Assembly: GCF_000686845.1 (NCBI RefSeq)
Contig: NZ_KK366024.1
Location: forward strand, 213,261-277,260
Length of the DNA stretch: 64,000 bases
Origin: Paenibacillus sp. UNC451MF
Lineage (GTDB): Bacteria > Bacillota > Bacilli > Paenibacillales > NBRC-103111
Direction: 5' to 3'
Below, in pieces: positions 22,692 through 32,016 of this stretch; within the stretch, counting starts at the first letter, position 1, and each line of letters begins with the position of its first letter. The translations under genes and the position numbers were made by a program. Under the pieces are notes generated by a model. It ran no database searches, was not told where the DNA came from, and saw only the letters and a list, made by a program, of their open reading frames with translations.

Positions 22692-25600
22692 ATGGAAAGC
22701 CAAATGCAAGAGGGGGGCTTTCATCCGCTTGTTACACAATGGTTTGATGAGCAATACGGAAGTCCTACCGATGTGCAGATTCGTTCATGGAAGGCGATCC
22801 AATCGGGGATGCACACCTTAATTGCGGCACCGACCGGTTCAGGCAAGACATTGGCAGCACTGCTACCCTGCGTAAGCCATATTCTTCAAGAAAAAGAGGG
22901 GAACACCGATGCTGCTTCTATTCGGCAGGTGAGGCTTCTATATATCACGCCGTTGAAGGCGCTCAACAATGATATCCACCACCATGTTATAGGCTATATC
23001 GCACAGCTTAAGGAAAAAGCAGAAGAGCAGAACTGGAGCTGGAAAGGTCTGTCTGTTGGTGTCCGAACGGGAGATACTACACAAAGCTCGAGAGCCGCAA
23101 TGGTTCGTAACCCGCCGGATGTACTTGTGACTACACCGGAATCGTTGTACTTGCTGCTCACTTCTCCCAAGGGGAGGATGATGCTCAAGGGCGTTCAGTG
23201 GTGCATTGTGGATGAAATTCATGATTTGGCAGGAGATAGAAGAGGACTGCACTTATCCGTTACACTTGAAAGATTAACAGAGTGGATCGGTCAATCGCCA
23301 CAGCGAATAGGTGTCTCTGCTACACAGAAGCCGATTGAGCTTGTTGCGAGATTTCTAGGCGGCTGGGAATTGTCTACACCGACAGGGGAAAAGAAGATCA
23401 TGGAAACGGCCCAAGAGGATGCTTCCATGGTCAGTGCTGAAACAGGAGAATCCTACAACCTAAGGCCGGTAGAAATTATCGAAAGCCGAATGGATAAGAA
23501 ATTCACGCTTCGCGTTACCCTGCCTCACAAAACAATGATCACTAAAGATAAGCAGGAGACCATATGGAAGCCTTTGATAGAGCACATTGTCAAACTCATC
23601 GAAGATAGCCGATCAGCGCTTATTTTTGTCAATAATCGAAGATTATGTGAAAGGCTTACCCTAAGATTAAATGATCATATGGGCTACGAAATGGCGCGCT
23701 CGCACCATGGCAGCATCTCCAAAGAACAACGGCTCGAAGTGGAACGAGCATTGAAGGAGGGGGAGCTTCGCTGTCTTGTTGCAACCTCCTCATTGGAGCT
23801 AGGGATTGATGTAGGTCATATAGATCTGGTTCTGCAGATTGATTCACCCAAGAGCGCCGCTGCAGGAATCCAGCGGATAGGTCGTGCTGGCCACTCCGTC
23901 GGTGACGAAAGTCGAGGTATTATCCTTGCACGTACTCGTGGACAGCTCCCTGAGTGCGCGGTGCTTGCCCAAAGTATTGTGAATCGGCAGATTGAAGATA
24001 TCCATATTCCACGCTATGCGCTGGATGTACTATGCCAGCAGATCGCAGCCATGGTAGCAGCAGATGAATGGGAACTCGAACGACTATATCATATATTCCA
24101 ACGCAGCTATGGCTATCACGGGTTTACTAAGGAACGGTTCCGGTCCATACTTCAAGTTCTGTCCGGATTTTATCCTTTTGTTCGTCCTCTTATCGATTGG
24201 GATCGGGAGAGCAATCGATTGACCCGCCGAAGCTCCACCGCAATGTCAGCGATCATGGGGGCCGGTACCATACCACAAGGTAGCGATTACCCCGTCCATC
24301 ATGCCGAGAGTCGCATTCATTTGGGAGAGTTAGACGAGCAGTATATTTTTGAAAGCCGAGTCGGAGATGTATTTCAGCTAGGAACAAGCTCATGGAGAAT
24401 ACAATCTATTCGGAACGACCGAGTCTATGTGGTTGAAGAGACGGGAAACAAACTAAGTGAGATTCCTTTCTGGCGTGGTGAAGGGCAAGGAAGATCCATT
24501 GCTTTTTCTGCAGAAATCGGACATTTTCTGGAGCAGCTTGACATTCGTATAGACAGAGAAAATAAGCTTCAGACGTTAGATTGGCTGATGGACAGTTATT
24601 ATTTGGACGCATCGGCCGCTGAAGAGCTTCTTATGCTGCTGCATTCGCAAAAAGCAGTATCCGTACTTCCGACGCATCGTAGAATTGTGATCGAACAATT
24701 TCAGGATGAGTACAAGCAGCATCGGCTTATCATTCATAGCTGGTTTGGGCGCAAATTTAATCGCACCTGGCAATTGGCAATTCAAGCCCATGCTGAGCGC
24801 AGCATTCCTTATAGGATATATGCGAGTGCAAAAGATAATGGTATCGAGTTCGTTATATCGGATGGGGGCAGCGGAGAAGCGCTTAGACTGCTTCCGTTAA
24901 TCCGTGAGGTCACCTCGAATCGTTTGGAAACTCTGCTGCAGCAGGCGATACCAGCCTCGCCGCAATTTGGCATAGCTTTCCGCAGGCTTGCTGAGACTTC
25001 CTTACTGTTGTCACGAAGCTTTAACCGGATGCCCTCATGGCAAAAAAGACTGCGTAGTGAGGAGCTTCTTCGGGAATCGCTGCCCTATGCAGAGACGTTT
25101 CCTTTCATAGAAGAAGCGATTCGAATATGTTTGCATGAGGATTTGGATGTGGGTCATGTTCGCGAAGTGTTAGAGCAAATCGAGTCGGGACAGGTGGAAG
25201 TCATTGAGAGACAGTCGGCATTCCCATCCCCGTTTACAGCATTATTCTTATCGGATGCTCTCAATACACAAATTTACGAATCCGATGCGATAAGTAGAGA
25301 TTTACAGGCAAACTTGGCTGGTATGGACCGTGCACTGGCAGGGCAATGGTTCTCCAATGCTTCGAGTCACATGGCAGAGTCTATGAATATGTCGGAACAT
25401 GATGATAAGAGGCACACCGAGAATAATAAGGATGAAGAAAAACCTAGATTGTATGAGTCGGGTGAACTGCTTAGCCTGTTAAAGCATCGTGGGGAAATGA
25501 CGGAAACTGAACTATTGGATTGGCTGGATAAGGATAGGCTGGAAGACCTGCTACATAGGTTATACCAGGAAAAAAAGATAGTACAAATACAATTGGACAG

Positions 25601-27128
25601 TACATCTTCACAGTTATATTGGATTTGCGCTGATGAAGCAGATACTTATTCTCAATTGGGAAAGGATTGGCTTGCTGACAGGTTTATTGCAACTCGTTAT
25701 GTGAATCAAAGAATAAGGATAACATCTCAAGAAATACAGGCGCGATACGGGTTGAAAGAGCAGCGAATTAATGAACTTGTTCACTCATGGGAATCAGAAA
25801 ATCGTATTGAGTTGTCGCAAACAGATCAGGCAGCTACTGACCGAGTTTTGCTGAACCGCCAATTAGATGCACGGCATAACCGTCAACAAGCTGTTGAACT
25901 TAGGAAGGCCACAGAATCTATCCATGCTATAAACTATTGCATCAAGATGATGTCTCTTCAACACGTACTCCCTCACACTCGGCTGAACGGGGAAGTGGGC
26001 TTGAGGCAGGTCATAGAAAAGCTCCAAGGATTGTATTTTCCATTATCTCAATGGGAGTCGTCTATCTTACCGCTTCGGCTAAATGATTATAAGAAAGAAA
26101 TGCTCGACCGGCTCTGCTCTTCCGGTGAAGTCATATGGTTAGGACAAAAGCAAGACGGTGAAAAGGAAGGGCGCATTGCGTTTTTCCTAGCTGAATCCAA
26201 AGAACTTTATTATCCGATGCTTGAAAAGGAAGAGAAGATTGACTTGAACTTTGAAAAAGAACTTCTCCAACTTCTGCAGCGCAAAGGAGCAAGCTTCCTC
26301 ACGGCTCTTAGCCGTGAAACCGGGCATATCCCATCCGAATTGACGGTTGAATTGCTAAATTTATCCTGGAAAGGATTGGTTTCAAACGATCAGTTTGCTC
26401 CCTTACGATTAAATGGTGGCACGACCTCCAAGACGGCCAAAGGCAAAGGCTTTCAATCAGGTCTAGGCAGATGGTATCCCGTAAGTTCGCTAAAAGACGA
26501 AGAAGGCTGTGACCAACAGATATGTGTTCTGGCATGGATTAAGCATTTGTTGAATGGGTACGGATTGTTGACCAAGGACATTGCAGATCTTCATCTCCCA
26601 TGGGAGTGGAGCGATGTCTATGCTGCTCTGAAACAGCTTGAAACCTGGGGGATGCTGACTCGCGGACTATGGGTTGAAAATATTCATACATTGCAATTTG
26701 CAGGCAAGGATCAGATTGAGAGTCTTCGCAGCCGTGAATGGGCAGGAGATACTAGTCCTATCGTACTACCTTCAACGGATCCAGCTAATCCTTTTGGACT
26801 TACTGTCCATTGGCCTGAGAAGGAAGGGATGAGCTTCACCCGAAAAAAAGGGAATGATCTCGTCATACAAGGAGGCCGTTGGCTGCTGTGGATTGAAAAC
26901 AACGGTAAACGCATGTGCCCCATGGAAAAGGTATCAGACGATGAGCTGTATCATTTAATCCGGTCAGCTGCCGAAGGTTATTTGAGGCTGCCTAAAACTC
27001 GAAAATTAATTATAGAAAAGTGGAACGGGCTTCCTGTTTTACAAACGGAGGTCGCAGAAGTACTGTACACGCTGGGAGCCGAAAAAGACCGCGAGTCTCT
27101 TGTTATATGGCCAAGCGCATTAAGGTGA
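22692..27128 (+). CDS. lhr: Lhr-type superfamily 2 helicase (long form)
   Basis: AAGGAG precedes the ATG. The 1478-aa protein has a DExH helicase core (residues about 10-440): Walker A APTGSGKT, motif Ia TPLKALNND, Walker B/DExH as VDEIHDLAG, motif III GVSATQ, motif V SSLELGIDVGHIDLVLQ and motif VI QRIGRAGHS. A winged helix and the Lhr core domain follow (to about 860), and the long C-terminal region (about 900-1478) matches the large Lhr proteins such as E. coli Lhr (1538 aa). Lhr proteins unwind RNA:DNA hybrids and are linked to DNA repair. Monocistronic. Confidence 0.9.
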   Translation: MESQMQEGGFHPLVTQWFDEQYGSPTDVQIRSWKAIQSGMHTLIAAPTGSGKTLAALLPCVSHILQEKEGNTDAASIRQVRLLYITPLKALNNDIHHHVIGYIAQLKEKAEEQNWSWKGLSVGVRTGDTTQSSRAAMVRNPPDVLVTTPESLYLLLTSPKGRMMLKGVQWCIVDEIHDLAGDRRGLHLSVTLERLTEWIGQSPQRIGVSATQKPIELVARFLGGWELSTPTGEKKIMETAQEDASMVSAETGESYNLRPVEIIESRMDKKFTLRVTLPHKTMITKDKQETIWKPLIEHIVKLIEDSRSALIFVNNRRLCERLTLRLNDHMGYEMARSHHGSISKEQRLEVERALKEGELRCLVATSSLELGIDVGHIDLVLQIDSPKSAAAGIQRIGRAGHSVGDESRGIILARTRGQLPECAVLAQSIVNRQIEDIHIPRYALDVLCQQIAAMVAADEWELERLYHIFQRSYGYHGFTKERFRSILQVLSGFYPFVRPLIDWDRESNRLTRRSSTAMSAIMGAGTIPQGSDYPVHHAESRIHLGELDEQYIFESRVGDVFQLGTSSWRIQSIRNDRVYVVEETGNKLSEIPFWRGEGQGRSIAFSAEIGHFLEQLDIRIDRENKLQTLDWLMDSYYLDASAAEELLMLLHSQKAVSVLPTHRRIVIEQFQDEYKQHRLIIHSWFGRKFNRTWQLAIQAHAERSIPYRIYASAKDNGIEFVISDGGSGEALRLLPLIREVTSNRLETLLQQAIPASPQFGIAFRRLAETSLLLSRSFNRMPSWQKRLRSEELLRESLPYAETFPFIEEAIRICLHEDLDVGHVREVLEQIESGQVEVIERQSAFPSPFTALFLSDALNTQIYESDAISRDLQANLAGMDRALAGQWFSNASSHMAESMNMSEHDDKRHTENNKDEEKPRLYESGELLSLLKHRGEMTETELLDWLDKDRLEDLLHRLYQEKKIVQIQLDSTSSQLYWICADEADTYSQLGKDWLADRFIATRYVNQRIRITSQEIQARYGLKEQRINELVHSWESENRIELSQTDQAATDRVLLNRQLDARHNRQQAVELRKATESIHAINYCIKMMSLQHVLPHTRLNGEVGLRQVIEKLQGLYFPLSQWESSILPLRLNDYKKEMLDRLCSSGEVIWLGQKQDGEKEGRIAFFLAESKELYYPMLEKEEKIDLNFEKELLQLLQRKGASFLTALSRETGHIPSELTVELLNLSWKGLVSNDQFAPLRLNGGTTSKTAKGKGFQSGLGRWYPVSSLKDEEGCDQQICVLAWIKHLLNGYGLLTKDIADLHLPWEWSDVYAALKQLETWGMLTRGLWVENIHTLQFAGKDQIESLRSREWAGDTSPIVLPSTDPANPFGLTVHWPEKEGMSFTRKKGNDLVIQGGRWLLWIENNGKRMCPMEKVSDDELYHLIRSAAEGYLRLPKTRKLIIEKWNGLPVLQTEVAEVLYTLGAEKDRESLVIWPSALR

Positions 27129-27135
27129 GAGACTA

Positions 27136-27161
27136 GAGCATCTGCTTTCAAAGAGATGCTC
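27136..27161 (+). terminator. Probable terminator of the lhr gene
   Basis: GAGCATCT/AGATGCTC hairpin followed by TTCGTCATTTG; the T-run is weak. Confidence 0.6.
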
Positions 27162-27210
27162 TTCGTCATTTGTATGGATAATTACGGCTGTGGTGTTATG
27201 AAACGATTTT

Positions 27211-27240
27211 GTTGACAATTAACTCAACATGGGTAATACT
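27211..27240 (+). promoter_or_regulatory. Promoter and operator of the XRE gene
   Basis: The inverted repeat GTTGA-CAATTAAC-TCAAC (27211-27228) covers the -35 box TTGACA (27212-27217); the -10 box is TAATAC (27234-27239, 16-nt spacer). The same GTTGA-N8-TCAAC repeat occurs before the PolC-like gene at 28314. A repressor bound here would block polymerase. Confidence 0.7.
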
Positions 27241-27266
27241 GGTAATAAAAAAGGGGTTACATCAGC

Positions 27267-27614
27267 ATGAGTGAATTCGGCGAACGTTTAAGACAGCTCC
27301 GTAAACAAAATAAAATAACTCAAAGGCAGCTTGCCGAGAGGGTCGGCATCGATTTTACTTATATCAGCAAGATTGAGAGCGGAACGATGGACCCGCCTGC
27401 AGAAGACAAAATCATCAAGATGGCACAGATCTTGCATGTTGAATCAGAGGAGCTTATATTATCGGCAAAAAAAGTACCTACAAGCTTTCAAAAGGTGATT
27501 ACAGAAAATAAGGATGTACCTGTGTTTCTTAGAAAAGCATCCGAGCTTTCTCCAGAACAATGGAGGAAAATTAAAGGCATTATTGGAGAAGAGGAAGGAG
27601 GAGAGGAAAGCTGA
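27267..27614 (+). CDS. XRE/Cro-CI-type repressor of an ImmR/DdrO-like pair
   Basis: The 115-aa protein has an N-terminal helix-turn-helix (residues 5-60: LRQLRKQNKITQRQLAERVG, then TYISKIESGTMDPP) and a C-terminal segment VPVFLRKASELSPEQWRKI that is typical of XRE proteins paired with ImmA/IrrE peptidases. In ICEBs1 (ImmR/ImmA) and Deinococcus (DdrO/IrrE) the peptidase cleaves the repressor. The gene directly precedes such a peptidase gene (30 nt) and has a palindromic operator over its own -35 box, which implies autoregulation. Confidence 0.9.
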   Translation: MSEFGERLRQLRKQNKITQRQLAERVGIDFTYISKIESGTMDPPAEDKIIKMAQILHVESEELILSAKKVPTSFQKVITENKDVPVFLRKASELSPEQWRKIKGIIGEEEGGEES

Positions 27615-27643
27615 ATTCCACAAGGTTTATTTCATTAGAGCAA

Positions 27644-28297
27644 ATGGAAGGCTTGACGGAGCAAATCTTATTGGATTATGGATTCAATCCTCATGATAAA
27701 ATAATTCGTCCCGTCCCAATTGAAGAGATCATTGAATTTCACTTTGATTTAAATATTAGCTGGGAACCGATTGATCATTTGGATGATCAAGGCATGGTCA
27801 TGGCGGCCATTTTTCCAACAGAGAAACAAATAATACTAAATGAAACACAGCGCAATTTATTTGAGGAAAAGCTCGGAACCTATCATTTCACTCTAGCTCA
27901 CGAGTTAGGTCATTGGGTACTCCATTCCTTGCAATCGCCATATTGGCTGCGCTTACAATGTGTCAAGGAAAAGAGTCCATCGGCAGAGGTGATGCGACCT
28001 TTCTATTGCCGCAGCTTTGCGCATAAACCCAAGGTAGAAGTGCAGGCGGATCTTTTCGCAGGATGCCTGTTGATGCCGCGTCCCATTCTGGAGCGGGCCA
28101 TTATGCAGTTAAGAAGAATAGGCCTCATCCAGCTGTCTCACCTTTATAAATTAGCAGATTGTCTGCGTGTTTCGATCACTGCTCTTACTGTCCGTCTGAC
28201 ACAAACAAATCTGTTAAGTATTGATCAGGATGGACGCATTCGATGCATAGGATCCAAAGAGGGGAACCATTACGAGCAGATGACGATGGATTTATAA
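27644..28297 (+). CDS. ImmA/IrrE-family metallopeptidase
   Basis: The 217-aa protein has the zinc-peptidase motif HELGHWVLH (about residues 85-93) and the downstream third ligand in EVQADLFAGCLLMP. It is expected to cleave the XRE repressor encoded just upstream and so release its targets. ATG 27644 has no good ribosome site, while GGAGGAGAGGAAAG lies about 30 nt before it at the end of the XRE gene; translation may be coupled, or may start earlier at a non-AUG codon (CTG at 27611 is in frame). No membrane segment, so cytoplasmic. Confidence 0.88.
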   Translation: MEGLTEQILLDYGFNPHDKIIRPVPIEEIIEFHFDLNISWEPIDHLDDQGMVMAAIFPTEKQIILNETQRNLFEEKLGTYHFTLAHELGHWVLHSLQSPYWLRLQCVKEKSPSAEVMRPFYCRSFAHKPKVEVQADLFAGCLLMPRPILERAIMQLRRIGLIQLSHLYKLADCLRVSITALTVRLTQTNLLSIDQDGRIRCIGSKEGNHYEQMTMDL

Positions 28298-28313
28298 TTT
28301 TTATTGCATAAAT

Positions 28314-28331
28314 GTTGAGTTGATATTCAAC
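28314..28331 (+). promoter_or_regulatory. Second copy of the XRE operator, before the PolC-like gene
   Basis: GTTGA-GTTGATAT-TCAAC has exactly the same arms and spacing as the repeat at 27211-27228. A -10-like TATGAT follows at 28336-28341, with TTGAGT inside the repeat as a possible -35 (15-nt spacer). Confidence 0.65.
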
Positions 28332-28377
28332 ACAATATGATTGTGTGAATATGAATCATACCTATGGAGGGATTAAG

Positions 28378-29970
28378 GTGAAGGATAATATAAACCATGA
28401 AGTGCTATCAAAACATCGACTATATCCAAAACTAGAGAACGAGGAATATCTAATTCGTTCACTGTGTTACACCGCTGCTCAAAATTTATACGGGGAAACA
28501 CTGCCTGATATCGTTAAGAAACGGTTGGAGCTTGAATTGGAGGGTATTATTAACCATGGCATGGTTTCTCCATACCTGATTACTCATCAAGTGGTTAAAC
28601 AATTGAAGTTAGAGGGTTACTTAGTCTCAACACGGGGGTCTGTTGGTTCAACTTTCATCGCTTATTGTCTTGGTATAACAGAAATGAATCCCTTATTCCC
28701 TCATTATCGATGCAATCATTGCAAATATAGTGAATGGATACAAGAGAGTAAGGGCTGTGGTATTGATCTGCCAGATAAGGTATGTCCTAACTGTAGTGAG
28801 ATTATGCAAGGGGACGGTCATCATATTCCTTGTGAGATGTTTATGGGGCTTCAATATGATATCACTCCAAATATAGATTTGTGTGTAGCGACAGAATGTT
28901 CATCCAAGGTATATGACTATTTGAGTGAGCATTATGGCTACGATCAGGTAGTTCGTGTCGGTAATCAACATAGGGGAGGATTCTTTATCCTGCCAAAGGG
29001 TATAAAGCTTGAACAAATTACATTTGCACCTTTTGACGATAACATGGATGGTTTTGGAAAGTCCCTTTCCAATTACAAGGAGCTGGAAAAGTATGTTTTT
29101 AAACTTGATGTATTCGAACATATAGATCCAACTTTTCTCCGCTTGCTTGGTCAACTTACGGGAGTGGAACCCACTACAATCCCAATGCAAGATGCTAATG
29201 TACTTAGTTTGTTTCGCTCTACTCAGGCACTAGGTGTAAGTCCGGAGCAATTACGAACCTGTGTTGGGACTTATGGTATTCCAGAGATGCAGGTTCCTTT
29301 TGTGAGAGCTATGCTAGAAGAGACTCAGCCGAAATCATATTCTGATTTATTACAGATATCAGGACTTTCACATGGGAATGGTACTTGGGAGGCTAATGCA
29401 CAAGATCTGCTGAAATCTGGAGAGCATTCCCTTCAATCGGTTATAGCTTGCAGGGACGATGTTATGTTCAACCTAATCAATTGGGGCGTTGGACACGACA
29501 TGGCTTTTCTTGTTTCGGACAATGTACGAAAAGGCCTTGGGATCAGTGGGGAATGGGTGAAGGAGTTAGAAGTCAATGTCCCTTCCTGGTTCATTGAGTC
29601 TTGTCAAAAAATGAAGTATTTGTTTCCGAAAGCGCATGCTGTAACCTATGTCATCTCCGCAATAAGATATGCTTATTATAAATTGTATTATCCGTTAGAG
29701 TTTTACGCCGTCTATTTTTCAGTTCGGGGTCGTGATTTTAATTTGGAACTGTGTACTGAAGGTGCTGAGGTTATTGGAAATATACTTGATAAACGGGATG
29801 AACAGCCACAGCCTGATACCCAATATGAAGTGTTGCTGGATCTCTCAGATCATCAAGTGGCATTGGAGATGATGCTGAGAGGAATTTGTGTTAAAAGGGA
29901 CACAATAAGCGGTCAATACCTCTTTGAGTATAATCATCATAAATTGAAAGTACCGCTTGTGGACGTTTGA
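28378..29970 (+). CDS. Truncated PolC-like protein: polymerase core only, altered active site
   Basis: GTG 28378 has GGAGGG 6 nt upstream; a GTG at 28345 does not. The 530-aa product aligns from residue 16 with the palm/fingers of Gram-positive DNA polymerase III PolC: TRGSVGSTFIAYCLGITEMNP, a zinc finger (C112, C115, C136, C139) and VPFVRAMLEETQPKSYSDLLQISGLSHG. The N-terminal, exonuclease and PHP domains, the C-terminal helix-hairpin-helix part and the clamp-binding tail are all missing. The usual PDIDLNF is PNIDLCV: the first catalytic Asp is Asn165, while Asp167 and Asp244 (FKLDVFEH) remain. About 45 residues after VVRVG are deleted. It is unlikely to be a normal replicase. Confidence 0.85.
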   Translation: MKDNINHEVLSKHRLYPKLENEEYLIRSLCYTAAQNLYGETLPDIVKKRLELELEGIINHGMVSPYLITHQVVKQLKLEGYLVSTRGSVGSTFIAYCLGITEMNPLFPHYRCNHCKYSEWIQESKGCGIDLPDKVCPNCSEIMQGDGHHIPCEMFMGLQYDITPNIDLCVATECSSKVYDYLSEHYGYDQVVRVGNQHRGGFFILPKGIKLEQITFAPFDDNMDGFGKSLSNYKELEKYVFKLDVFEHIDPTFLRLLGQLTGVEPTTIPMQDANVLSLFRSTQALGVSPEQLRTCVGTYGIPEMQVPFVRAMLEETQPKSYSDLLQISGLSHGNGTWEANAQDLLKSGEHSLQSVIACRDDVMFNLINWGVGHDMAFLVSDNVRKGLGISGEWVKELEVNVPSWFIESCQKMKYLFPKAHAVTYVISAIRYAYYKLYYPLEFYAVYFSVRGRDFNLELCTEGAEVIGNILDKRDEQPQPDTQYEVLLDLSDHQVALEMMLRGICVKRDTISGQYLFEYNHHKLKVPLVDV

Positions 29971-30046
29971 TTTTTTAAAGTATTAGGGTTATGTGTTATT
30001 CTTTAGGTAATCAATAAACATCATGGTTATAAGGAGTTGTATTGAT

Positions 30047-30754
30047 GTGTCCATCCCAACGTATCGTCATATCATCATATTATTGCTTTGTATGTCATCC
30101 GGAATCGTAGACGTCGTGGGCTATATTAGTCTAGGACATGTTTTTACAGCGAATATGACGGGTAATATTGTTCTGATGGGCTTAGCCATAGGTCATGTGG
30201 AAGGACTTGCTGTGCTGCGTTCGATTACGGCTTTATTAGGCTTTGTAGCGGGTACAGCAATAGCTGCCCTTATTGTTAACAGAGATAAACTGCCTTCGGT
30301 TTGGCCAGCCTCCGTAACGATAGCTCTTACCATTGAAGCGGTTATTCTCATTATTTTTGCGGTCAGCTCCAGCTGGTTTAAAGGATCAGAGACTATGGTC
30401 TACTTTCTTATTGCCCTTTTAAGTTTGGCTATGGGCATGCAAACAACAGCAGCTAGACGATTAGGTATTGCGGGGATCTCTACTACGGTTTTAACGAATA
30501 ATTTGGCCAATGTTATTGAAGACGGTATTCATCAGCTAAGGCTGCTGATCAGAAGAGAGACGAAGAACACGCTTAGTCGTGATTCATTGCTCAGGTTATT
30601 AGCCGTGGTTATTTACTGCTTGGGTGCTATTATCGGAACGCTGGCTGAAGTTTCGTACCCGCTTGCTATTGTGTGGGTCCCCATAGCTGTCTTAGGAGGT
30701 ATTATCGTGGCGGCGGGGATCCGATTTCGGAATGATTCTGCTGTTTACAAGTAG
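30047..30754 (+). CDS. DUF1275 (YoaK-like) membrane protein
   Basis: GTG 30047 fits the AAGGAG site (10 nt); ATG 30023 lies upstream of that site. About 235 aa with six hydrophobic helices and the DUF1275 signature SSGIVDVVGYISLGHVFTANMTGNIVLMG near the N-terminus, then AMGMQTTAARRLGIAGISTTVLTNN. Function of the family is unknown. It lies 76 nt after the PolC-like gene with no clear terminator between, so read-through from that promoter is possible. Confidence 0.85.
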   Translation: MSIPTYRHIIILLLCMSSGIVDVVGYISLGHVFTANMTGNIVLMGLAIGHVEGLAVLRSITALLGFVAGTAIAALIVNRDKLPSVWPASVTIALTIEAVILIIFAVSSSWFKGSETMVYFLIALLSLAMGMQTTAARRLGIAGISTTVLTNNLANVIEDGIHQLRLLIRRETKNTLSRDSLLRLLAVVIYCLGAIIGTLAEVSYPLAIVWVPIAVLGGIIVAAGIRFRNDSAVYK

Positions 30755-30842
30755 ATGTTCATCCAAAATGGTACCGGATTTATCATTGTCGATATGCCTA
30801 CTGAAATTATATCTCTTCTTTTTTTGATCAAATAAAGCACGA

Positions 30843-30877
30843 GAAGCGGGATAATTCGATCCTGCTTCATTTTATTT
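30843..30877 (+). terminator. Terminator of the DUF1275 gene
   Basis: GAAGCGGGAT/ATCCTGCTTC stem (one G-T pair) then ATTTTATTT. Confidence 0.7.
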
Positions 30878-30916
30878 AGCAGCAGAATTTCAAACCGACC
30901 ATCTAATAAGAAGAAA

Positions 30917-30957
30917 GACGATCTTTCCCGGATAGTCGAGGAGATCGTCCTTTTATT
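30917..30957. terminator. Bidirectional terminator between convergent genes
   Basis: GACGATCT/AGATCGTC with a 17-nt loop; T-rich on both strands (CTTTTATTTT, and TTTCTTCTT on the minus strand). Confidence 0.7.
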
Positions 30958-30993
30958 TTAGCAGTGCTGCATAATATTAGTTCTCAGATAAGC

Positions 30994-32016
30994 TTATGTA
31001 GCTTTATACCGATGCTCGACCTTCATAACTTTCCATACCGTTACCGAAATGAGCCAGGCCAGGATGAACAAGGCAACAAGTAAATAACCGAGATCCCCAA
31101 AGTCCAGTTCATTAATCCATACGAAAATAGGAGCTTGCAGGTTCAGTTTATCCGTCAACACCTGGACTAGCTCAACCATTCCGATGATTAATGCTGCTAT
31201 GACAGAGACCGTAGTGACCGTCACATTATAGTACAGTTTTCTAAGTGGTGTCGTGAATGCCCAACGGTAAGCTTTGGTCATGAACATTCCGTCAGCTGTA
31301 TCCATTAAGCTCATGCCTGCAGCGAAGAGCAGAGGTAGAGAAATAATTCCGAAGACGGGGACGGATGTTTTGGCCGCGGTAGCCGAAATGGCTAATAAAC
31401 CTATCTCTGTTGCCGTATCGAAGCCAAGTCCGAACAAAAAACCTAACGGATACACATGCCAGCCGCGACTGATGAAACGGAACATAGGCTTCAATAACCG
31501 GGAAAAGAATCCTCGGGAATCAAGTATTTCCTCAAGCTGCTCGTCCAAGAACCGACCTTGGCGTATTTTTCGAAAAACTTGAAATAACTGGATTAAAATA
31601 ACAAGATTAATAATACCAATCAATACGAGAAAAGCTCCAGACACCGTAGTACCTATCAATCCGCCAATCTCCTGCATTTGCGGCATTGCCTCTTGAATCC
31701 ATTTCATTGACAACGCTATGGTCAGCACCATCAGGAATACAACGGACGAGTGACCGAGGGAAAAATAGAAGCCTACACCCAAAGGATTTCTTTTTTGCTG
31801 GATCAATTTACGGACTGTGTTGTCGATGGCAGCTATATGATCGACGTCAAATGCATGTCTCAATCCAAACGTATAAGCTAACAACCCAAGACTCCAAAAG
31901 CTTGCATCGCCGCGGGCTGCTGTGATTAATCCGATAATACCTAACACATGAAGCGCTATGACTACGAAGAAATAGCCGCCCCAATCCTTTTTATTGCTCA
32001 AGATATGATTTAACAC
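30994..32016 (-). CDS. NiCoT-family nickel/cobalt permease
   Basis: GTG start with AGGAGGAG 6 nt upstream. The 340-aa, eight-helix protein carries the NiCoT signature in TM2 (RHAFDVDHIAAIDNT) plus FSLGHSSVVF and LGFDTATEIGLLAIS. HoxN/NixA-type permeases import Ni2+ or Co2+ with high affinity for urease, hydrogenase or B12 enzymes; none of these is in the window. No riboswitch or NikR-type site was recognised upstream. Which metal it carries cannot be told. Confidence 0.92.
   Translation of the reverse strand: MLNHILSNKKDWGGYFFVVIALHVLGIIGLITAARGDASFWSLGLLAYTFGLRHAFDVDHIAAIDNTVRKLIQQKRNPLGVGFYFSLGHSSVVFLMVLTIALSMKWIQEAMPQMQEIGGLIGTTVSGAFLVLIGIINLVILIQLFQVFRKIRQGRFLDEQLEEILDSRGFFSRLLKPMFRFISRGWHVYPLGFLFGLGFDTATEIGLLAISATAAKTSVPVFGIISLPLLFAAGMSLMDTADGMFMTKAYRWAFTTPLRKLYYNVTVTTVSVIAALIIGMVELVQVLTDKLNLQAPIFVWINELDFGDLGYLLVALFILAWLISVTVWKVMKVEHRYKAT

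Follow-up and report, generated by a model that had tools for sequence, protein, structure and literature searches.

The stretch of Paenibacillus sp. UNC451MF DNA analysed here, 64,000 nucleotides in length and referred to as the window, contains genes for an XRE repressor and an ImmA/IrrE-type protease next to a gene descended from PolC. A regulon of the XRE/ImmA pair that is joined by one conserved operator is well supported by sequence comparison, because the strict operator GTTGAGTTGANNNTCAAC was confined to ImmA-bearing genomes and always stood before an XRE, a PolC-like, a second-PolC, an M16-DnaE or a DUF3892 gene. We consider it probable that the pair is a two-gene switch of the ImmR-ImmA/CapH-CapP kind, that its regulon in this family consists mainly of accessory DNA polymerase III alpha genes, and that it runs through the full cycle proposed below. 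The sites, the co-occurrence of the genes, the cargo, the degeneration of the PolC-derived protein and the constraint at the codon level are direct observations.

The repressor gene (27267..27614, plus strand) codes for 115 amino acids and is directly followed by a gene for an M78 metallopeptidase with an HEXXH motif (27611..28297, plus strand, about 228 amino acids), the arrangement that characterises an ImmR/ImmA-type pair. The reading frame of the protease overlaps the stop codon of the repressor gene and probably starts with CTG (27611), an ATG at 27644 being the alternative; in several of its homologues an ATG or TTG start occupies the corresponding position. Domain scans upheld the gene calls of an earlier sequence-only reading, which had named an XRE protein, an M78/IrrE-type peptidase and a PolC-derived open reading frame. 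In the repressor GIDFTYISKIESG was identical in 13/13 homologues and the C-terminal FLR was invariant, and so was HELGH in all 13 homologues of the protease. The best PADLOC match of the repressor was capH (1e-13) and its best NCBIfam model was phage RstR, below the cut-off of that model. For the protease the best PADLOC match was capP (4e-21), followed by RmrA models, and the sole PDB match at E 0.01 was CapP (7t5t, 4.5e-8). All 13 ImmA proteins had capP as their best PADLOC match, the capH match having been examined for the window repressor only. A profile of the repressor matched another regulator, 9sf2, best in the PDB; by HTH regions it also reached 7t5u (3.2e-6), which we take to be CapH from the neighbouring entry code, the ICEBs1 regulator (0.019) and DdrO entries (0.02-0.11). 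The protease, previously called ImmA/IrrE, is therefore nearer to CapP than to IrrE by its PADLOC and PDB matches. ImmA was found in 10 of 104 genomes of the family (E 1e-15 or better); samples of 392 genomes from the order and 398 from the class contained 13 (1e-12) and two (1e-20) genomes with it, the latter two both from the Paenibacillales order of the window. A viral, phage or plasmid source was considered and rejected, as no close relative was present in the IMG/VR, phage and plasmid sets.

Operator 1 (GTTGACAATTAACTCAAC, 27211..27228) lies over the predicted -35 of the XRE promoter (TTGACA, 27212-27217) and operator 2 (GTTGAGTTGATATTCAAC, 28314..28331) between ImmA and the PolC-like gene; no strand is assigned to either. 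Both had been pointed out before, and in a pattern scan they are indeed the only matches to GTTGA-N8-TCAAC without mismatch in the window. With two mismatches allowed the loose pattern was at chance level (37 found versus a shuffle mean of 31.65). The description of the operators as identical is correct for arms and spacing; in direct orientation nothing else is identical, and after reverse complementation of one site the two match at 15 of 18 bases (GTTGAGTTAATTGTCAAC versus GTTGAGTTGATATTCAAC), the likeness extending into the flanks. The location of the first site over the XRE -35 box could also be confirmed, as it contains TTGACA, a possible -35 hexamer, with AATACT 17 nt downstream; the promoter scan of the region returned 4 promoter-like sites versus 3.4 in shuffles, so that the -35 match alone gives weak support. 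From the end of operator 2 to the likely GTG start of the PolC-like gene (28378) there are 46 nt; the start of the longest open reading frame is a GTG at 28345. In the entire 7.49-Mb genome the loose palindrome was found at 10 places, versus 3 for the reversed pattern. A scoring matrix trained on 18 sites, all from other genomes and with the window sites held out, gave 37.7 and 37.5 for the two window sites and 5.5 to 18.9 for the other eight exact matches, and the best score in 20 first-order Markov sequences of 64 kb was 17.4. Of the 10 exact matches in the genome only the two in the window thus score high, and a chance origin of these sites is ruled out by the held-out matrix together with the family-wide operator scan. 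No exact match to a LexA-type box was present in 26.9-28.5 kb, no RNA family in 26500-31000, and the window contains no pointer to the signal.

The family-wide scan covered 104 genomes with the strict operator GTTGAGTTGANNNTCAAC, and the adjoining gene was read at each match. Twelve matches were obtained, which fell into nine of the 10 ImmA-bearing genomes and none of the 94 others; downstream were a PolC-like gene (five), a second PolC (two), an M16-DnaE arrangement (one), DUF3892 (two) or the XRE gene (two). The reversed control gave 1 match in the same 104 genomes. The tenth ImmA genome, G009, is without an exact GTTGAGTTGANNNTCAAC and has a site with one mismatch. For the extended operator, 13 matches with 0-1 mismatches were detected in 22 chosen genomes, all of them in ImmA genomes and none in the 12 without ImmA. 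Matches with two mismatches occurred also in the ImmA-less genomes G008, G010 and G023, and with three mismatches in 21 of the 22 genomes, whether or not ImmA was present; the two groups are told apart only by matches with 0-1 mismatches. An exact-arm site was located 5' of the XRE gene in 12 of 13 pair loci examined, and no recognisable operator of its own was seen at the pair of G057.

The order site-XRE-ImmA-site-PolC-like is found in the window, in G009 (second site with one mismatch) and in G031, which belongs to another genus, and together with the common operator it bears out the previously claimed link between the three genes. In G039, G049 and G057 the PolC-like gene, with an operator in front of it, is on a different contig from the pair; G049 and G039 have a one-mismatch site behind ImmA, with no polymerase there. 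The PolC-like protein had been regarded as the output of the regulon. This gene is indeed one of its targets, but it shares that position with a second PolC (G053, in the order site-XRE-ImmA-site-second PolC, and G057, where an intact second PolC has two operators, one with a mismatch), with a second DnaE (G091, site-XRE-ImmA-site-M16 peptidase-second DnaE) and with DUF3892 (site-XRE-ImmA-site-DUF3892 in G101 and in G001 of the window's genus). The pair and DUF3892 are also found on an element, by its sequence, with serine recombinases and RadC in three f10 genomes, which are of another family in the same order, and in one of them (G171) a D5-like protein is by the pair as well. The position of the pair before DUF3892 in G001, G101 and f10 indicates that polymerases are neither the sole nor the oldest cargo. 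Such polymerase genes also occur outside the regulon, as the second PolC of G085 has no operator and the second DnaEs of G053 and G085 no exact one; in G053 a single, unlike match with one mismatch lies within a broken M16 gene.

Several further observations concern the surroundings of these genes. The f10 regions with XRE-ImmA, DUF3892, serine recombinases and RadC are L076 8900-14500, L077 8600-15000 and L078 9400-17400, the last with an additional D5/DUF5906 protein. In three genomes the pair, or the pair plus second PolC, is followed by a gene for an ECF sigma factor (L066 7344-8033, L062 7529-8170, L067 7848-8495; the domain scan covered L066 only), and G049 has an operator-like site immediately 5' of it. 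Genome G220 encodes a second PolC of 1199 amino acids with PHP and exonuclease domains near an XRE-like gene (L050 7108-10707), and no exact operator is present at this locus. Second DnaEs that are 90-91% identical to that of G091 are encoded in three genomes of two genera (L063 3372-6941, L195 6995-10369, L196 7586-11155), and the M16 peptidase gene before the second DnaE is intact in G091 and apparently broken in G053. By domain scan, the neighbours of the window module are a helicase, ABC transporters and DUF1275. The helicase, an Lhr-like protein of 1478 amino acids (22692-27128) directly upstream of the module, matches PADLOC DpdJ (4.7e-167) and scores higher with an NCBIfam helicase model (3.2e-225, below the cut-off of that model); it is also located in front of the module in G009 and of the solitary PolC-like gene of G011.

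The PolC-like gene of the window (28378..29970, plus strand, GTG start after GGAGG) codes for a degenerate PolC paralogue of 530 amino acids, on which PolC models match over palm and fingers. The stretch after the PDID motif is the thumb region of the polymerase, and a C-terminal motif of the QLSLF type is its clamp motif. Palm and fingers are retained and homologous to PolC, which speaks for PolC by descent; the N-terminal/OB part, PHP, exonuclease, thumb region and C-terminal QLSLF end are missing, and the first catalytic Asp is replaced (PNID for PDID). A functional PolC would need all three catalytic Asp residues (PDID, KLD), PHP, exonuclease, thumb region and clamp motif, a set that is incomplete in this protein. 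Given the loss of exonuclease, PHP and thumb region and the exchange of one catalytic Asp, this protein probably does not function as a polymerase, judged from its sequence. The genome's own PolC, located in an open frame of 1463 codons, is 45-47% identical to it, in two pieces. A predicted model (mean pLDDT 72.9) matches PolC 3f2b with a TMq of 0.85; it was built from 7 sequences, and four of the five models were under 63.

Relatives of this protein were searched in 296 genomes (104 of the same family), with four candidates per genome scored and genomes with more than two matches rescored. Among the matches listed there are at least seven PolC-like genes (window, G009, G011, G031, G039, G049, G057). 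The intact second PolCs (G053, G057, G085) and the 1199-residue PolC of G220 were left out of these seven, as were the native gene of G017, which is spread over two frames, and also a weak 31% fragment of G053 with two TGA codons. A tree of 24 rows, in which five of 13 further native PolC loci were taken in, separated the seven PolC-like proteins from PolC2 and native PolC by a branch (100/100), a division to be read with a long-branch warning; the intact second PolCs form a group (89/93). None of the seven has the exonuclease, and each is missing some 40-45 residues or more behind the PDID motif. Three are without a PHP and in the remaining four it is degenerate; the first catalytic Asp is changed to Asn in four, PDID being still present in three. 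Among the matches listed, six of the seven genomes with a PolC-like gene also have ImmA, compared with four of 97 others (Fisher, 9e-7); since the genomes are related, this P overstates the association. The sequence-only reading had named homologues of the PolC-like gene without the pair as evidence against its proposal, and one of the seven is of this kind: G011 has neither the pair nor a full operator, only a half-site, TATCAACTCAA, before its PolC-like gene.

In ImmR/ImmA and DdrO/IrrE the protease cleaves the repressor after DNA damage or a signal. By comparison with these systems and with CapP/CapH, we assume the following cycle. At rest, the XRE protein would occupy GTTGAGTTGA-N3-TCAAC at its own and at the target promoters and keep both repressed, as suggested by the position of the sites and by footprinting. 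A signal would activate the M78 protease, the repressor would be cut and the target released. Single-stranded DNA or replication stress is the most likely signal, and DNA damage may act as one; PMC10904395 and PMC13373217 describe CapP and PprI/IrrE as activated by ssDNA. The target in the window would be a PolC descendant that most likely does not synthesise DNA and acts through its retained palm/fingers fold, either on the replisome or on a fork that is stalled or belongs to a phage; a replisome partner, a brake and a phage decoy are candidate roles after release. In relatives the switch is tied to a second PolC that is intact, or to an M16 peptidase together with a second DnaE. More tentatively, the cycle might amount to an SOS-independent 'replisome swap', in which ssDNA at stalled forks acts on ImmA and frees alternative alphas or, in the lineage of the window, a dead PolC mimic that docks at the fork or at a phage replisome and pauses or redirects synthesis.

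Part of the evidence can be read differently. The pair could be the immunity module of an ICE or phage and the adjoining polymerases the passenger replication genes of a mobile-element remnant rather than a host regulon. In the three f10 genomes pair and operators do have serine recombinases and RadC as neighbours, and in G171 also a D5-like protein, and the second DnaE is 90% identical in G091 and G053, which belong to different genera, so that transfer, possibly a recent one, is implied. Pairs of the ImmR/ImmA type are, moreover, often located on conjugative transposons and phages according to section 4.4 of PMC8072749. Against this stand the genes scanned by the module (nine in the window plus two further right, four in G009, four in G031), among which no recombinase or phage domain was detected, the operators before polymerase genes on contigs other than that of the pair in three genomes, and the low identity of the closest ImmA relatives in the IMG/VR, phage and plasmid sets (at most 35%; 25% for the PolC-like family in IMG/VR). 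We regard this explanation as unlikely; it is probably right on the origin of the module and less so on its present role. That the PolC-like frame is a decaying pseudogene with an incidentally shared operator is highly improbable. The loss of domains, the short forms in G011 and G031 (the shortest of the family) and the long branches would agree with decay, but all seven frames, which share 44-56% identity with the window protein, are free of stops, the four cysteines of the palm and many residues of the fingers are invariant, and the operator is kept before the gene in six of seven. In all 21 pairs the third codon position is the most variable and the second the least (for G049-G057 0.46 at the third, 0.23 at the first and 0.19 at the second), which, with seven intact frames, is as expected under constraint.

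Two other explanations are compatible with the core of the switch and concern its output. In a DNA-damage mutasome, the operator-controlled alphas would copy across lesions with the degenerate PolC as an ImuB-like, non-catalytic partner. The second PolC and the second DnaE have retained their catalytic motifs, and the PolC-like protein of G009 ends with QLNMF, which resembles the native QLSLF clamp motif; the window protein, however, is without a C-terminal clamp motif. No Y-family domain was detected among the proteins scanned at the window module, and a degenerate and an intact operator-linked alpha are found together only in G057. The second DnaE of G091, which shares 69% identity with the other DnaE of that genome, scores above the cut-offs of replicative alpha models and below that of the error-prone model. 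A DnaE2 plus an inactive partner polymerase is, as described in PMC8072749, an established mutasome design, and we see this output as conceivable though doubtful. The alternative of an anti-phage module, in which a controller of the CapH/CapP type frees a PolC decoy to stall the replication of phage or host, appears rather unlikely to us. It would agree with CapP/CapH as the best-fitting PADLOC models (RmrA models match too), with the patchy occurrence and swapped cargo, with the genes for FRG-domain and restriction-endonuclease-domain proteins upstream of the pair in G101 and with the control of immune operons by CapH and CapP that PMC13373217 describes. The PolC-like protein, however, matched none of the PADLOC families, and intact polymerases are among the cargo elsewhere.

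The preferred reading, a repressor-protease switch over accessory polymerase genes, combines a switch of a known kind with an unusual regulon. No thumb-less form of Pol III alpha appears in the accessible part of a survey of these subunits (PMC3919608). In the open-access literature searched there was no description of accessory Pol III alpha genes as the regulon of such a switch, none of this probable pseudo-polymerase derived from PolC and, judged by titles, no related report on ImmA with PolC. The switch is tied to accessory copies of replicative polymerases from three lineages, namely a degenerate PolC, an intact second PolC and a second DnaE, and this suggests an unrecognised route for adjusting DNA replication under stress. 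If true, some Gram-positive bacteria would be able to call up alternative or decoy subunits of the replicase when needed, outside the SOS response. As a natural, probably dead PolC, the window protein offers a way to find out which parts of PolC have a role when no DNA is synthesised.

The known targets of repressor-protease pairs include mobile elements, repair genes of Deinococcus and immune operons. With CapH/CapP of CBASS and Bub operons the window pair shares the XRE repressor and M78 protease beside the controlled gene, the best PADLOC matches and, for the protease, the only PDB match; the window repressor, however, matches in the HTH only, and the cargo consists of DNA polymerase III alpha paralogues with no adjoining CBASS or Bub operon. 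ImmR/ImmA of ICEBs1 is similar in its adjacent XRE and ImmA genes and in an operator at its own promoter, for which 27211-27228 would be the counterpart, and relatives of the window pair adjoin serine recombinases in the three f10 genomes. In contrast, the genes scanned around the window module include neither an element gene nor a recombinase, the target is replication-derived, and the ICEBs1 regulator was matched only at E 0.019. DdrO/IrrE of Deinococcus likewise consists of an XRE repressor and an M78 protease with a palindromic operator, but the DdrO matches are confined to the HTH (E 0.02-0.11), IrrE was not reached at E 0.01, and the regulon in the window genome appears tiny, with two strong sites among 10 exact matches in 7.49 Mb (exact matches only). 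ImuA-ImuB-DnaE2 also combines regulated accessory alphas with an inactive polymerase-derived protein, which here is of the C-family (PolC) and not of the Y-family, and it has another regulator. With PolC itself (3f2b) the window protein has the palm/fingers fold and the palm cysteines in common; OB, PHP, exonuclease and thumb region are missing from it, as are one catalytic Asp and the C-terminal motif.
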